Assembly: GCA_947467395.1 (NCBI GenBank)
Contig: CANIIC010000006.1
Location: 1-53,075, forward strand
DNA length: 53,075 bases
Direction of reading: 5' to 3'
Source: Bryobacterales bacterium
Lineage (GTDB): Bacteria > Acidobacteriota > Terriglobia > Bryobacterales > Bryobacteraceae
Shown here: positions 18,686 through 24,503 of the stretch, piece by piece
How positions within the stretch are numbered: position 1 is the first letter of the stretch
How the letters are laid out: every line of letters begins with the position of its first letter
The notes under the pieces: generated by a model
Told to the model about the DNA's origin: nothing
Databases searched by the model: none
The model's input: only the letters and a program-made list of their open reading frames with translations
Made by a program: the position numbers and the translations under genes

Positions 18686-19558
18686 TTATTGAGGATCCTC
18701 CGCTTCAAAGATGATGTCGGCAGAGGCTCCGAAGCGTCGGAAACCTTCGTAGGTGAAGTGATTTTCCGCCGTCACCTCGCCGTTGCGGCTCTCTCGATGA
18801 TCGGTACGCACCGGCAGCACAATGCCGTAGCCGGACATCGCGTATTCGACGCTGGCCTCCTGCCGCTGAGCATCCTCTCCGGACCGGATCGAAATCCGCA
18901 CCGGCTGGTAGGTATCTTCGTTCACCCAGATCTCGCCGCTCACCTCCAGTGCCGTAGCCACTTTGCTGCGCGCGTCAATCACCGTGACTGGATTGGGACC
19001 ATCAATCTGCCGGTAGGAGAAGACCAGCACCGGCCGGTCACTCTGGGTCGCCCTACGAACAAAACCGAATTCGTAGCGGCCGATATTGCCGGGCGTGAAC
19101 AAAAGAATCACCTGTCCGAAGTCCGTAACGGCGCCCTGCAGTCCATAGTTCGCGAACTGTTCCAGCAGCTCCCGCTTGCGCCCTTGATCATCGGCCAGAA
19201 TCAGCTTGGCCAGCGCTTCCGGCCCTTTGTTCTTGACTGGCTTGCCATCCACGGACGTCACCTGCCGCAGTTCGTGGAGGCTACCTTCCCCGAAGGTCGA
19301 AAACGCGTACTCGGAGACAATCTTGCGTTGTTGCCACTCCACCGGTGGAGAGCGCTTGGCATTATCGCCCACGCGGACGCGGAAACGTTTGGGTGGTTTT
19401 TGTGCTCTCTGTTCCAGAGTCTCAACACCTAGGACCCGGGGCGCGGCGCGTTCAAAGGCGGAGGCTTCTTCAGCCAGACGCAACGCCAGCCGCTGGGTTC
19501 GTTCGTCCGCGCGAACTGAGACCGTCAATGCCAGGAGCAACCACCAAATTCGAACCAT
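18686..19558 (-). CDS. Exported protein of unknown function
   Basis: 290 residues. Signal peptide MVRIWWLLLALTVSVRA, then a helical stretch and a mainly beta region with LVFSYRQIDGPNPVTVID, LEVSGEIWVNEDTYQPVRI and a final HFTYEGFRRFG. The later part resembles the unclosed beta-barrel seen in LolA/LppX-like periplasmic proteins and in uncharacterised acidobacterial exported proteins; this is an impression from strand pattern only. TAGACT ends nine bases before the ATG. It is followed without gap by the small hydrolase. Confidence 0.75.
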   Translation of the reverse strand: MVRIWWLLLALTVSVRADERTQRLALRLAEEASAFERAAPRVLGVETLEQRAQKPPKRFRVRVGDNAKRSPPVEWQQRKIVSEYAFSTFGEGSLHELRQVTSVDGKPVKNKGPEALAKLILADDQGRKRELLEQFANYGLQGAVTDFGQVILLFTPGNIGRYEFGFVRRATQSDRPVLVFSYRQIDGPNPVTVIDARSKVATALEVSGEIWVNEDTYQPVRISIRSGEDAQRQEASVEYAMSGYGIVLPVRTDHRESRNGEVTAENHFTYEGFRRFGASADIIFEAEDPQ

Positions 19559-19608: not shown

Positions 19609-20754
19609 ATGCGATTCTCAGTTGACGCGCACGCCATCGGCTGTCATCTGACGGGGAATGAAGTTTATATCCGCAATCTCTTGAATGAGTTTGCGCACCT
19701 GGATCAGGATAGTCACGTCGTCGCGTACATTTCGAAGCCCAACGCGCCGGAGTTTATTCCGAAGCGCTTCGAAACGCGCTGGGTTTCCGACAATCCCTAC
19801 AAACGCCTCGCCTGGGACATGCCGCGTCACGTAGCGCACGACCATCCCGACCTGCTGCACGTCCAGTACACCGGCCCGCTCGGCACCTCTGTGCCCTTGG
19901 TGGTCAGCATCCACGACGTCAGCTATCTGGAACATCCCGAATATTTCAGCACCTTCCGCGCAACGCAGCTCAAGCTGACCGTGAAGCGCACTGCGGAACG
20001 CGCGGCGAAGATTCTAACGCCCAGCGAATTCTCCAAAACCGCGATCATGCGCCACTACGGCATCGAAGATGAGCGCGTCGTGGTGGTTCCGAATGCCGTC
20101 TCCAGCCAGTTCGTTCCGATGGATCGCAACCAGGCGCAAGCCCGCATCCAACGGAAGCTCGGGATCCCAGCCCCGTTCGTTCTTACTATTGGGGACTTGC
20201 AGCCGCGCAAGAATCACATGGGCCTGCTGCACGCCTTCGAACAGGTGATCGCGTCTCACCCGAAGCTGCCGCACCACTTGGTCTTCGCTGGCAAAGAAAC
20301 CTGGTATTCCCCGCGCCTACATGAAGCCGTCGCGAAGTCCAAGGTAGCCGATCGCATCCATTTCACCGGCTTCGTGGAAGATGAGGACGTGGTTACGCTC
20401 TACGGAGCCTGTGACCTGTTCGTGTACCCGTCGTTTTACGAAGGCTTCGGCCTGCCGATCCTGGAAGCCATGGCCTGCGGTCGCGCTGTCGCGTGTTCCA
20501 ATGCAACTGCTATGCCGGAAGTCGCCGGCTCCGCCGCGCTCCTGTTCGATCCGAAAAATACGGAAGAAATGGCTCACATGATCTGCGATGCGCTGTTGAA
20601 TCCGGATGTCCGCACACGCCTCGAACTGCTGGGCCCGCAGCATGCCGCCACGTTCAGCTGGGAGAAGGCGGCCGCCGAAACCTTGAACGTGTACTACGAG
20701 GTGGCCGGTGCCGCTCGACGCGTGGAAGTCGCCGTCAAAGCGGGTGTCGCGTGA
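19609..20754 (+). CDS. Glycosyltransferase family 4 (GT-B)
   Basis: 381 residues. The ATG at 19609, with GAGAGG upstream, is chosen over a much longer open frame because the GT-B fold begins here (MRFSVDAHAIG, then a glycine-rich loop HLTGNEVYIRNLL). The C-terminal nucleotide-sugar-binding half has IGDLQPRKNHMGLLHAF, HFTGFVEDEDV and the EX7E motif in YEGFGLPILEAMACG. GT4 enzymes transfer sugars from nucleotide-sugar donors with retention, usually on the cytoplasmic membrane face. It starts a four-gene plus-strand cluster and overlaps the next gene by GTGA, so the products are probably made together. Confidence 0.93.
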   Translation: MRFSVDAHAIGCHLTGNEVYIRNLLNEFAHLDQDSHVVAYISKPNAPEFIPKRFETRWVSDNPYKRLAWDMPRHVAHDHPDLLHVQYTGPLGTSVPLVVSIHDVSYLEHPEYFSTFRATQLKLTVKRTAERAAKILTPSEFSKTAIMRHYGIEDERVVVVPNAVSSQFVPMDRNQAQARIQRKLGIPAPFVLTIGDLQPRKNHMGLLHAFEQVIASHPKLPHHLVFAGKETWYSPRLHEAVAKSKVADRIHFTGFVEDEDVVTLYGACDLFVYPSFYEGFGLPILEAMACGRAVACSNATAMPEVAGSAALLFDPKNTEEMAHMICDALLNPDVRTRLELLGPQHAATFSWEKAAAETLNVYYEVAGAARRVEVAVKAGVA

Positions 20755-21410
20755 AGCATCTCATTCTGACTGCGGCTCTGCTCTGTGCCGCAGCCAACGC
20801 CGAATCGCTCCACTACACCATCAACTGGCAGAGCGGACTCAGCCTTGGAGAAGGCGCGCTCATATCAACGAAATCGGCCGAAGGTGTTTGGTCCTCCGAA
20901 CTCACGCTGGACGCGGCCGTGCCCGGCTTCACCATTCGCGACGAATATCGCTCGAAGGCCAACGCGGGTTTCTGTTCGGACTGGCTCGAACGGACCACGA
21001 TTCGTGGCTCCCGCAAGAACAGCGAGAAAGTCACCTTCGATCAGGAACATCACAATCTCAAGCGTGAAACGCAGGGCGGAGGGAACAGCCAGTCGCAGAT
21101 CGCCGATTGCGGGCGCGACGCTCTCACGTTCCTGCAGTATGTGCGGCAAGAACTATCGCAGGGCCGCATCGCGCCGAATCAGCCCGTCTACCTGGGTTCG
21201 AAGTATGACCTGCAACTAACCTACACCGGCACTGAATCGATCAAACAAGCCGACCAGCGCATCGAAGCCGACAAAGTTCGCGTCTCCATTCACGGACCGA
21301 AGTCGGATCTCACCATCGAGCTGTACTTCGCGCGAGACGATGTGCGGACGCCCGTGCTGGCGCGCTTGCCGCTCGCGCTCGGCGTGTTCACAGTGGAGTT
21401 GCTGCCGTAG
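20751..21410 (+). CDS. DUF3108 exported protein
   Basis: 219 residues from a GTG overlapping the stop of the glycosyltransferase (GTGA). The signal peptide is MKHLILTAALLCAAANAE. The mature part is a mostly beta protein matching DUF3108: LHYTINWQSGLSLGEG at the start, CGRDALTFLQYVRQEL in the middle, VYLGSKYDLQLTYTG after it, and VLARLPLALGVFTVELL at the end. DUF3108 proteins are predicted periplasmic lipid-binding-like barrels of unknown role. Its position between two cytoplasmic glycan-assembly genes suggests a periplasmic part in the same glycan pathway. Confidence 0.8.
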   Translation: MKHLILTAALLCAAANAESLHYTINWQSGLSLGEGALISTKSAEGVWSSELTLDAAVPGFTIRDEYRSKANAGFCSDWLERTTIRGSRKNSEKVTFDQEHHNLKRETQGGGNSQSQIADCGRDALTFLQYVRQELSQGRIAPNQPVYLGSKYDLQLTYTGTESIKQADQRIEADKVRVSIHGPKSDLTIELYFARDDVRTPVLARLPLALGVFTVELLP

Positions 21411-21415
21411 CGCCC

Positions 21416-23356
21416 ATGCGCCTCGCGTTCTTCTCTCCCCTGCCCCCCGCGCGTAGCGGCATCGCCGATTATTCGGAGGAGTTGTTGCTTCATCTGCGCA
21501 AGCTCGCGGAGATCGACACGTTCAGCGAACAACCCGCTGTCTTCGATCCCGCCGGTTACGACACGTGCGTCTACCAGCTGGGCAACAATCCGTTTCACAC
21601 CTTCGCCTATGAAGCCGCGATGCAGCATCCCGGTATCGTGGTGCTGCACGAAGCGAACCTGCATCACCTGGTCGCGGATCTGACCATCAAGCGCGGCAAT
21701 TGGGATGCGTACCTGAAAGAAGTGGAAGTCGACGGCGGCGCGGAAGCGCTCGCGTATGCGAAGCGCTACGTGCAGCCGGTGCGCCGCGGGCCGGACTACG
21801 ATCTTCCGCTACTCACCAGCATCCTGAGACGTTCTAAAGCCGTGATCGTGCATAGCGAGACCGTGGCACAAGTCGTTCGGCAGCGCGGCTTCAAAGGACC
21901 GATCGCCAAGATCCCGCACGGGGCCTGGACCGTCGATACCGACGGCTCACCGTGGCGCGCGAAGCTTGGGCTGGCGGCGAATGTTCCGCTATTCGGCATC
22001 TTCGGTTTTCTGAAGCCGTACAAGCGCATCGCCGAATCGCTGCGGGCGTTCCGACGCGTAATTGCGGAGCACCCGGAAGCTCGCTTGATCCTGGTCGGCG
22101 AGGCACATCCGGAGTTGCCGCTGGCAAATCTGATTTCGTCACTCGGCCTCGGTGCCCACGCCCGTCACATCGACTACGCGCCCATCGAAGACTTCAACGG
22201 CTACTTGGCCGCGTGCAACGCGATCCTGAATCTGCGTTACCCCACGGTCGGCGAGACTTCGGGCACCCTGCTCCGTTCGCTCGGCATGGGCAAGCCTGTG
22301 TTGATCAGCGAGATCGGCAGCTTCTCCGAATACCCGGACGACATCTGTCTCAAAGTTCCCGTCGACGCCAGCGAAGAAGAACACATCTACGAGTACCTAA
22401 AGCTCCTCGTCGAGCGCCCGGAAGTCGGCCGCGCTCTGGGCCTGCAAGCGCGCAAGTGGGTGGAACGCGAGTGCAACTGGCCCTCGGTCGCCCAGCGCTA
22501 TGCAGAATTCGCGCATGCCGTCGCTAACGGTACCGCGCAAATCGTCGAGACACCGCCCGCACCTGTCGACGTTCCCGCAGAGTACATCCTGTCGTGGACT
22601 AAAGAAGAAGACGGTTCGCGCGGTTACGCCAAGACGCACCAGACACGACTCAAGAAGACGCTCGACGTCACGCCGCCCGGCGGCCCTGGCGATCGTGCGC
22701 TGGAGATGGGCGCCTATCTCCAGATCACACCCGCACTACGCACCAAGCTCGGCTATGGCGAGGTGCGCGGCTGCTATTTCGGCACGCTCGGCAAAGTGGA
22801 CCATCGCACCGTCACATCCGAAGACGGCGAGACGTTCGACTGCGATATCGATCACTTCGACGCGGAGCAGGATCCGTTCCCGTACGAAGACAACTCCTTC
22901 GCGACCGTACTGTGCTGTGAGCTGATCGAGCACTTGCCCACCGACCCGATGCACATGATGAGCGAGCTGAATCGCATCATCCGTCCCGGCGGCCATCTGG
23001 TGATCACCACGCCCAATGTCGCGTCGCTGCGTGCGCTGGCGGGCATCCTGCAGGGCTACCATCCGATGCTGTTCCCGGCCTACATCAAGCCGAACCCCGG
23101 TGGCGATCCCGATCCGCGCCACGCACGCGAGTACACACCGCGGGAGCTGGAAGCGCTATTCCAGAACTCTGGCTTCGAAGTAACGTTGCTCGAAACCGGC
23201 CCGTTCCTCGATGAGCCGACACCCGACCTTCGCTGGGTGGAACACCTCCTCGACACCTATATCCTGGACCCGAAGCATCGCGGCGACGGCATCTACATCG
23301 TTGGCCGCAAGACCGGTCCCATCAGACAGCGTTATCCTGACTGGCTGTACAGCTAG
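21416..23356 (+). CDS. Fusion protein: glycosyltransferase (GT4) plus SAM-dependent methyltransferase
   Basis: 646 residues, ATG five bases after the DUF3108 stop. Residues 1 to about 375 form a GT4-type GT-B enzyme: FSPLPPARSGIADYSEELL, GIFGFLKPYKRI, a donor-site region LNLRYPTVGETSGTLLRSLG and GKPVLISEIGSFSE. Residues about 420-600 are a class I methyltransferase: DFATVLCCELIEHL-type motif (FATVLCCELIEHLPTDP) and LNRIIRPGGHLVITTPN, although the usual glycine-rich SAM loop is weak (ALEMGAYLQ). A single chain that adds a sugar and methylates it, or its partner, would fit capping or modification of a surface glycan before export by the next gene's product. Confidence 0.88.
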   Translation: MRLAFFSPLPPARSGIADYSEELLLHLRKLAEIDTFSEQPAVFDPAGYDTCVYQLGNNPFHTFAYEAAMQHPGIVVLHEANLHHLVADLTIKRGNWDAYLKEVEVDGGAEALAYAKRYVQPVRRGPDYDLPLLTSILRRSKAVIVHSETVAQVVRQRGFKGPIAKIPHGAWTVDTDGSPWRAKLGLAANVPLFGIFGFLKPYKRIAESLRAFRRVIAEHPEARLILVGEAHPELPLANLISSLGLGAHARHIDYAPIEDFNGYLAACNAILNLRYPTVGETSGTLLRSLGMGKPVLISEIGSFSEYPDDICLKVPVDASEEEHIYEYLKLLVERPEVGRALGLQARKWVERECNWPSVAQRYAEFAHAVANGTAQIVETPPAPVDVPAEYILSWTKEEDGSRGYAKTHQTRLKKTLDVTPPGGPGDRALEMGAYLQITPALRTKLGYGEVRGCYFGTLGKVDHRTVTSEDGETFDCDIDHFDAEQDPFPYEDNSFATVLCCELIEHLPTDPMHMMSELNRIIRPGGHLVITTPNVASLRALAGILQGYHPMLFPAYIKPNPGGDPDPRHAREYTPRELEALFQNSGFEVTLLETGPFLDEPTPDLRWVEHLLDTYILDPKHRGDGIYIVGRKTGPIRQRYPDWLYS

Positions 23357-23357
23357 C

Positions 23358-24503
23358 ATGGCGACTTACAAGGCAGTTTCGGCCGCGCTCGAAGACGGCT
23401 CGATCCGCGTACGCTTTGAGAGCGACGCGCGCGGCGTCATCGGCTGGCAACTGTTCGATCCCGCGACCGGCGCGTTCCTGAGTGAAGGCGAATGGAGCGA
23501 ATCGCAAGGCGCGAACTCGCTGAAAGTCACGCTGCCTCCCGAAGAAGGCGCGTATCGCATCCAGGTGGCTCCGGTCGAGGATCGCGACCGCTACATCGCC
23601 ATCGATGCCGAAGTCGGCGAGGGCCGACTCGCTATCACCGAGCCGCGTGTCGTCAGCGCATCCGGCGAACGCTGGTCGCGCACGATGCAGGCGATCCCCA
23701 AGGCGTTCACGCTGCCCGTCGCGAGCCTGTGGCGCAATCGCAAGCTGATCGGTTCGATGGTGAAGCGTGACATCCTGGCCCGCTATCGCGGCAGCTTCGG
23801 CGGCGCGCTTTGGACCATGCTCACGCCGCTGCTGCTGATGGCGACCTACTTCTTCGTCTTCGGCGTTGTGCTCAAAACGCGCTTCTCCGCCGACTCCAGC
23901 GGCACAGGCTACGTGCTGTACTTCCTGGCCGGGATGCTGCCGTGGCTTGCGTTTTCCGAAGCCGTCGGCCGGTCACCCTCGGTGATACTCGAATACCGCA
24001 CGTTCGTTAAAAAGTTAGTGTTTCCGCTCGACACGCTTCCCATGAACCTAGTGCTGGCGGGTCTGGTCACGGAAGCCTTCGGCATCCTAATCTTCCTGAT
24101 CGGCCTGTTCGTAGCGCGCGGCGGGGTACCTGCATCGATCGTGTGGCTGCCCGCCGTGTTGATCCCGCAGATCCTGCTCACCGTCGGCGTCAGCTGGCTG
24201 CTGGCAGCCACAGGCGTGTTCGTGCGCGATCTTGGCCAAGTAATCGGCTTCCTGCTGACGCTGTGGTTCTTCCTGACGCCCATCTGCTACGAGGAACGCC
24301 ACGACCTACCGACATGGATCTCGAGCATCCTCGGCTTCAATCCGATTCTGGTTTTGGTACGAGGGTATCGGGCGATCCTGCTGGAGAACGCATCGCCTTG
24401 GACGCCAGGAATGGCTGCTTTATGGGTGGGTTCCGCGGCGGTGGCGATCCTGGGCTATGCCTGGTTCCACCGCCTGCGGAAGAGTTTCGCGGACGTGATC
24501 TAA
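23358..24503 (+). CDS. ABC-2 polysaccharide export permease with extra N-terminal beta domain
   Basis: 381 residues; the ATG follows the previous stop by one base. Residues about 110-381 are a six-helix permease of the Wzm/TagG class: LIGSMVKRDILARYRGSFGG, LTPLLLMATYFFVFG, GMLPWLAFSEA and TLWFFLTPICYE. These form the channel that passes an undecaprenyl-linked glycan across the inner membrane with an ATPase (Wzt/TagH). Residues 1 to about 105 precede the first helix and are a beta-rich domain (GWQLFDPATGAFLSEGEW, AYRIQVAPVEDRDRY) not normally present in such permeases. No ATPase gene is nearby, so the partner must be encoded elsewhere. Confidence 0.9.
   Translation: MATYKAVSAALEDGSIRVRFESDARGVIGWQLFDPATGAFLSEGEWSESQGANSLKVTLPPEEGAYRIQVAPVEDRDRYIAIDAEVGEGRLAITEPRVVSASGERWSRTMQAIPKAFTLPVASLWRNRKLIGSMVKRDILARYRGSFGGALWTMLTPLLLMATYFFVFGVVLKTRFSADSSGTGYVLYFLAGMLPWLAFSEAVGRSPSVILEYRTFVKKLVFPLDTLPMNLVLAGLVTEAFGILIFLIGLFVARGGVPASIVWLPAVLIPQILLTVGVSWLLAATGVFVRDLGQVIGFLLTLWFFLTPICYEERHDLPTWISSILGFNPILVLVRGYRAILLENASPWTPGMAALWVGSAAVAILGYAWFHRLRKSFADVI

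Follow-up and report, generated by a model that had tools for sequence, protein, structure and literature searches.

A four-gene cluster in a Bryobacterales genome as the probable main part of a broken-up glycan export system

We analysed a window of 53,075 nt from a Bryobacterales bacterium (assembly GCA_947467395.1, contig CANIIC010000006.1, positions 1 to 53,075), with a focus on a cluster of four genes at positions 19609-24503. The cluster is best explained as the main part of a broken-up glycan export system of the WzmWzt type, dependent on an ATP-binding cassette (ABC) transporter and acting on a lipid-linked, probably O-methyl-capped glycan; we put the probability of this explanation at about 0.7. 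The ATPase gene is displaced in this genome rather than absent. The features concerned are as follows:

19609..20754, + strand: cluster gene 1, GT4 glycosyltransferase of 381 residues (Pfam Glycos_transf_1, 109.8 bits)
20751..21410, + strand: gene 2, exported DUF3108 protein of 219 residues with a GTG start (Pfam DUF3108)
21416..23356, + strand: gene 3, GT4-methyltransferase fusion of 646 residues (Pfam Glycos_transf_1 and Methyltransf_23)
23358..24503, + strand: gene 4, Wzm-type export permease of 381 residues (Pfam ABC2_membrane, profile and structure matches)
23358..23657, + strand: predicted immunoglobulin (Ig)-like beta-sandwich, N-terminal domain of the permease (predicted structure, profile scans)

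All four reading frames are intact. The tight packing reported in the initial annotation was borne out, the junctions being a 4-base overlap, a 5-base gap and a 1-base gap (-4, +5 and +1), with a Pfam match on each gene. The fusion consists of a GT4 part at about residues 1-370 (Glycos_transf_1 at 180-348) and a class I methyltransferase at about 420-600 (Methyltransf_23 at 481-590). Pfam matches up to E 0.1 included no kinase domain in the fusion, which sets it apart from methyltransferase-kinase proteins of the WbdD type. The permease has an ABC2_membrane match of 67.7 bits at residues 131-341, and its core matches structures of Wzm, TarG, and KpsM, with E 3.6e-38 to 6m96_B by profile. Fold comparison with VIA-align, which covered almost only the membrane part, gave Z-scores of 29.6 to TarG (9cfl_A), 27.9 to Wzm (7k2t_B) and 26.0-27.9 to the Aquifex Wzm chains.

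The gene order was compared in 54 loci from other genomes, defined as contigs carrying the fusion and obtained from a scan of genome contigs. These contigs come from metagenome-assembled genomes (MAGs) with titles such as Acidobacteria, Terriglobia and Bryobacterales; a single one bears the title Bordetella. An intact set (all four genes, in order, on one strand, with gaps below 1 kb) was present in 41 of the 54 loci, and relatives of the cluster genes were 30-80% identical. The order is thus mostly kept in relatives, as is consistent with the proposal, made from the window alone, of an ABC-dependent type of glycan export cluster. The 13 loci without an intact set comprised eight cut by contig ends, two without DUF3108, and three (L083, L085 and L090) with a paralogous fusion in which the four-gene set was not present. 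The paralogues, 43-45% identical, represent a second kind of GT4-methyltransferase fusion that occurs without the full set. A second GT4 gene (GT4b) lies upstream of gene 1 in 33 of the 54 loci and a third (GT4a) ahead of GT4b in 28. The permease alignment included 44 of 46 locus permeases, those of L059 and L076 being dropped for doubtful ends. The contig with the Bordetella title (L040, Bordetella parapertussis MAG) carries the same cluster, and its title looks wrong.

Three proteins with a Wzt_C domain are encoded in the window's genome, on contigs C12 (P0004), C137 and C13 (P0005). P0004 is an orphan Wzt of 399 residues, flanked on one side by a gene judged by eye to be protein-kinase-like and on the other by an M24 peptidase that we call PepP here. 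It matches Aquifex Wzt over nearly the full length (E 5.3e-89), possesses the C-terminal carbohydrate-binding domain (Wzt_C, 114.2 bits, Pfam cut-off 30.4) and has the Walker A, Walker B and signature motifs. By pattern, Walker A was present in 30/30, Walker B in 29/30 and a YSSGM signature in 25/30 members of its family. The absence of an ATPase noted in the initial annotation therefore holds for the cluster and not for the genome, and the suggested search by Wzt homology did recover a candidate.

The link between this ATPase and the cluster is provided by relatives. A P0004-type ATPase lies directly 3' of the fusion and the permease in five genomes (G039, G044, G049, G053 and G057), all outside the window's family; in the window's genome the permease and ATPase genes are unlinked. 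In G049, a single run comprises GT4a, GT4b, GT4, DUF3108, the fusion, the permease, the ATPase and PepP. The same set is found in three places in the window's genome: C6 holds the four genes, and C12 holds both GT4a-GT4b, at approximately 20.5-22.6 kb, and ATPase-PepP, at 37.0-39.3 kb, the frame of PepP overlapping that of the ATPase. Among 30 ATPase loci, PepP was close to the ATPase in 13, at the locus edge in three and not found in 14. No P0004-type ATPase was detected beside the permease in the 54 loci, several contigs of which end at or soon after the permease. The lone match of this type within them (33%, in L074) was far away, and a loose ABC ATPase pattern yielded 12 scattered matches of varied size and strand across the 54 neighbourhoods. 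An upstream gene of about 405 codons, considered as an ATPase candidate from its size, was identified as a GT4.

In the mechanism that we propose, the GT4 enzymes would assemble a lipid-linked glycan at the cytoplasmic face, and the fusion would attach the last sugar and methylate the growing, non-reducing end. The Wzm permease would partner the C12-encoded Wzt, whose Wzt_C domain would recognise the methyl cap and thereby license export, with the permease's Ig-like N-terminal domain (N-domain) probably assisting glycan docking. After export, the DUF3108 protein would carry or otherwise handle the lipid-linked glycan in the periplasm, on its presumed way to the cell surface. We consider the mechanism likely in outline and its capping and periplasmic steps putative. 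The initial annotation listed no polymerase or ligase; neither these nor an initiating enzyme occur in the cluster, which is no obstacle because candidates for these steps are encoded elsewhere in the genome: five Wzy_C proteins, as ligases or polymerases, and four Bac_transf proteins, as initiating enzymes. The suggested likeness to O-antigen systems stands as far as ABC-type glycan export is concerned, and we saw no sign favouring O-antigen over another surface glycan.

The N-domain, which the initial annotation did not mention, adds about 100 residues ahead of the ABC2_membrane part of the permease. The predicted structure (mean predicted local distance difference test score, pLDDT, of 88) has nine strands in residues 4-100, followed by the Wzm fold. 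Across 45 members, no Pfam family exceeded the cut-off for this domain; weak resemblances were to an NBR1 Ig-like domain (7/45) and a Y_Y_Y domain (7/45), and Wzt_C was not among the 18 Pfam families listed. Profile matches in the PDB, to short repeats of designed armadillo proteins and weakly to GH158, were taken as chance. When 297 genomes drawn across the phylum were searched, the N-domain profile matched in 54. The matches in the window's genome and in G014, from the same genus, were the cluster permeases, with by far the top scores, and the others were weaker (E 1e-11 to 1e-5). We extracted 22 reading frames with the domain, and 20 were scanned by Pfam: six methyltransferases, one GT4-methyltransferase (with the Ig-like match C-terminal of the methyltransferase), two Wzy_C proteins, seven glycosidase-like proteins (three of them below the cut-off), one sulfatase and three uninformative frames. 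Named glycan-related kinds thus made up 17 of the 20, and an ABC2_membrane match was found in none. Judged from these carriers, the N-domain appears to be mobile and to occur mainly in glycan-related proteins; here it is placed on an export channel. By the known topology of Wzm, the domain would lie on the cytoplasmic side, close to the ATPase and the end of the chain. Acidobacteriota proteins of the O-antigen ligase/polymerase type (Wzy_C; L220 and L226) have a domain like the permease N-terminus.

The DUF3108 protein has a readable signal peptide (ending in AANA, before ES) and a DUF3108 (PF11306) match of 44.7 bits (cut-off 26) at residues 22-217. Up to E 0.1, the only other Pfam match listed was a weak one to LptD_N, and the resemblance to YmcC/GfcB is one of fold only. 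Cys75 and Cys120 are invariant in 47/47 sequences. The structural model (pLDDT 94) is beta-rich, and its best interpretable match is Brucella EipB (6ntr, Z 17.3 over 201 residues), followed by a DUF1089 protein (2h1t, Z 12.0), VioE (10.5), the YmcC-like structures 3fzx and 4fvs (9.9), LolA (9.6) and E. coli YmcC/GfcB (2in5, 8.4). The top match, chain Xh of an axonemal complex (9fqr, Z 18.1), could not be interpreted. The DUF3108 fold has been called YmcC-like (PMC4364669), and GfcB, encoded in the group 4 capsule operon, has been described as LolA-like with a proposed shuttle role (PMC8592465). The claim that a DUF3108 role in glycan export is without precedent was therefore weakened by a loose fold relative in a capsule operon, while the texts available to us included none that places DUF3108 itself in a glycan export operon. 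On the strength of the model, periplasmic handling of a lipid or lipid-linked glycan is the likeliest role.

Several findings weigh against the explanation given at the outset, beginning with the methyltransferase. In an alignment of 48 fusion sequences (one row, apparently the split fusion of L091, was dropped by a length and stop filter), motif I has the unusual form LEMGAYxQITPAL. Tyr454 and Gly456 after the motif are invariant (48/48), and the acidic residue that usually holds the ribose of S-adenosylmethionine (SAM) is absent there. Because this SAM site is atypical, the methyltransferase may be altered or inactive, and methyl-capping itself can only be called probable. The corresponding pocket in Wzt was compared with that of Aquifex aeolicus, in which Leu300, Thr346, Ala348 and Trp362 form the methyl pocket and Asn313, His350 and Tyr233 make contacts (PMC9445017). 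Among 30 members of the P0004 family, L300 is kept in 28, T346 in 29, and A348, W362 and N313 in all 30; His350 is replaced by Gln in 30/30 and Tyr233 is not kept. This conservation pattern makes it likely that the pocket suits a methylated sugar, though not necessarily the same one as in Aquifex.

These points would also fit an exporter of the same kind in which the methyltransferase does not cap, either acting on internal sugars or being inactive, and Wzt_C reads some other hydrophobic end group. In L091, as assembled, the GT4 and the methyltransferase are separate reading frames, which would suit such an arrangement. On the other side, the methyltransferase is otherwise fused to GT4 and remains beside the permease, seven motif I residues (L429, E430, G432, Y434, T438, P439 and L441) are invariant in 48/48 sequences, which argues for function, and 28-30 of the 30 ATPases retain the methyl-contact residues L/T/A/W. 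We regard export without capping as unlikely, though it is the strongest of the alternatives. The terminal capping proposed in the initial annotation accordingly finds indirect support in the O-methyl pocket of the partner ATPase and is qualified by the SAM site; the methyltransferase domain of the fusion could make the cap for that pocket.

The gaps in gene content and the looser structural matches weigh in the same direction. In L072, L086, G022 and G029 the neighbouring genes have no DUF3108 between them; of these, G029 has GT4a, GT4b, gene 1, the fusion and the permease, and G022 has gene 1 and the fusion only, despite 1.9 kb of contig past the fusion. No gene 1 match was found near the fusion in G053, although 8 kb upstream was available, and neither gene 1 nor DUF3108 was matched near it in G057; the contig of G039 begins within DUF3108. 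Given these gaps in G022, G029, G053 and G057, the core of fusion, permease and ATPase is steadier than DUF3108, which can be dispensable or replaceable since it is absent from several loci. The fold matches of DUF3108 to YmcC-like proteins and LolA are loose, with Foldseek template modelling scores not exceeding about 0.4, and autotransporter barrels reach comparable Z-scores (up to 9.9). A transferred Wzt_C as the origin of the N-domain found no support (hhalign probability 12% over 52 columns).

Co-occurrence was assessed in 61 genomes searched with the fusion (E 1e-100), the ATPase (E 1e-140) and the permease; some of these genomes are the source of some of the 54 loci, so the counts are not independent. 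Both fusion and ATPase were found in 30 genomes, the fusion only in five, the ATPase only in none and neither in 26 (Fisher p 1.6e-12, with relatedness ignored). The five genomes with the fusion and no close ATPase match were G016 (an ATPase fragment only), G021, G022, G032 and G037 (the GT4 half of the fusion only, at a contig edge). For the fusion and the N-domain permease, the numbers were 33 with both, two with the fusion only, none with the permease only and 26 with neither. It is conceivable that the permease instead partners the C137 Wzt, which sits within its own glycan cluster, or a general ATPase, and that the C12 ATPase serves something else: no ATPase adjoins the permease in the window's genome, and G016, G021 and G032 have an N-domain permease without a full close ATPase match. 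Against this stand the 40 adjacent permease-ATPase pairs tabulated from the same searches. In the five pairs with an N-domain permease, the ATPase was always of the C12 type (58-61% identical to P0004), whereas in the 35 without the N-domain it was another Wzt (at most 56% identical). The absence of ATPase-only genomes (0/61) likewise speaks against a separate task for the C12 ATPase, and we consider such a partner switch improbable. Synteny and co-occurrence together pair the cluster permease with the C12 ATPase. A second lone Wzm permease, on C26 (L099:5570-6376; 268 residues), has no N-domain and no adjoining ATPase; since permeases without the N-domain pair with Wzt proteins not of the P0004 type, it probably works with the C137 Wzt.

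That the cluster is a decaying remnant whose ATPase was lost and whose genes are on their way out is very improbable: the ancestral set is indeed split into three places in the window's genome, but the four frames are intact, their relatives in the 54 loci are 30-80% identical, and the C12 ATPase is itself intact, with Walker A conserved throughout its family.

The third Wzt_C protein of the window's genome, P0005 (C13, L095:9033-9971), has no recognisable ATPase motifs. The Walker A, signature and Walker B patterns were absent in 30/30 members of its family (L131-L160), and in the 10 members displayed little is left of the stretch from the Q-loop to the signature. Cap-pocket residues are conserved, with N313, T346 and W362 in 30/30 and A348 and H350 in 28/30, and position 300 is Leu or Met. 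P0005 was set aside as a partner of the window's cluster: at E 1e-60 it was also detected in the fusion-less genomes G002, G003, G006 and G010 and was not found in seven fusion-bearing genomes, and at least one counted presence (G039) was a cross-match to an ordinary ATPase. In several genomes, a P0005-type Wzt adjoins a beta-helix protein.

A tentative extension, which we think rather doubtful as a whole, would combine the mobile Ig-like domain of the permease as a second glycan reader beside Wzt_C, the ATPase-dead Wzt, and DUF3108 as a carrier. If it were true, the ATPase-dead, pocket-keeping Wzt found in many of the same genomes may serve as a third reader or regulate chain release, and the DUF3108 carrier would take the lipid-linked chain over the periplasm after the permease has read the cargo.

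Among known systems, the permease core fits TarG, of the wall teichoic acid exporter TarGH, as well as it fits Wzm. TarGH is a Gram-positive system, and the ATPase of the window's genome matches Wzt better than TarH/TagH and has Wzt_C. The WzmWzt of Aquifex aeolicus (PMC9445017) is similar in that its Wzt is the best match of the ATPase, its Wzm is the best or nearly best match of the permease core among solved structures, and Wzt_C is present, with 28 to 30 of 30 sequences retaining L300, N313, T346, A348 and W362. Unlike it, the system described here has the extra Ig-like N-domain, a DUF3108 gene in the cluster and, in the window's genome, a non-adjacent ATPase gene, and does not keep His350 and Tyr233. 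The chain terminators WbdD and ORF6-O7 of E. coli and K. pneumoniae (PMC11231755) also tie a methyltransferase to chain ending in an ABC-dependent pathway, and ORF6-O7 combines methyltransferase and glycosyltransferase modules in one chain; in the window's fusion, GT4 comes first and the methyltransferase last, with no kinase domain by Pfam. GfcB/YmcC of the E. coli group 4 capsule operon (PMC8592465) is likewise an exported protein of LolA-like fold in a polysaccharide export operon, related to the DUF3108 protein by fold (Z 8.4 to 2in5) with no sequence match seen. GfcB is a lipoprotein with the partners GfcC and GfcD (PMC8592465), and none such was recognised beside the window's gene. Brucella EipB (DUF1849) shares the fold and is periplasmic, with a cell envelope role (PMC10787603), but belongs to a different sequence family (7% identity), and its locus contains envelope genes (bamA, lpx) and no glycan exporter.

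On the other strand downstream of the cluster are genes that by eye resemble superoxide dismutase and GatA/GatC. Upstream, at 18686-19558 on the minus strand, a divergent gene separated from the cluster by 50 bases encodes an exported-looking protein of 290 residues, for which Pfam gave no family match. This gene also adjoins the cluster in L040.

Acidobacteriota are common in soil. Our literature searches found no O-antigen ABC transporter, methyltransferase or Wzm system from Acidobacteria, and those on an N-terminal domain on Wzm, on the NBR1 FW domain in bacteria and on Bryobacter/Solibacter glycans listed nothing on this system. At the probability given above, cap-dependent export of the O-antigen type would be extended to this phylum. 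The case is also a worked example of a displaced transporter subunit recovered from synteny. Three features are new: the permease has a putative glycan reader of its own, a DUF3108 protein whose predicted fold resembles EipB is linked to glycan export, and one family of Wzt proteins lacks an ATPase.

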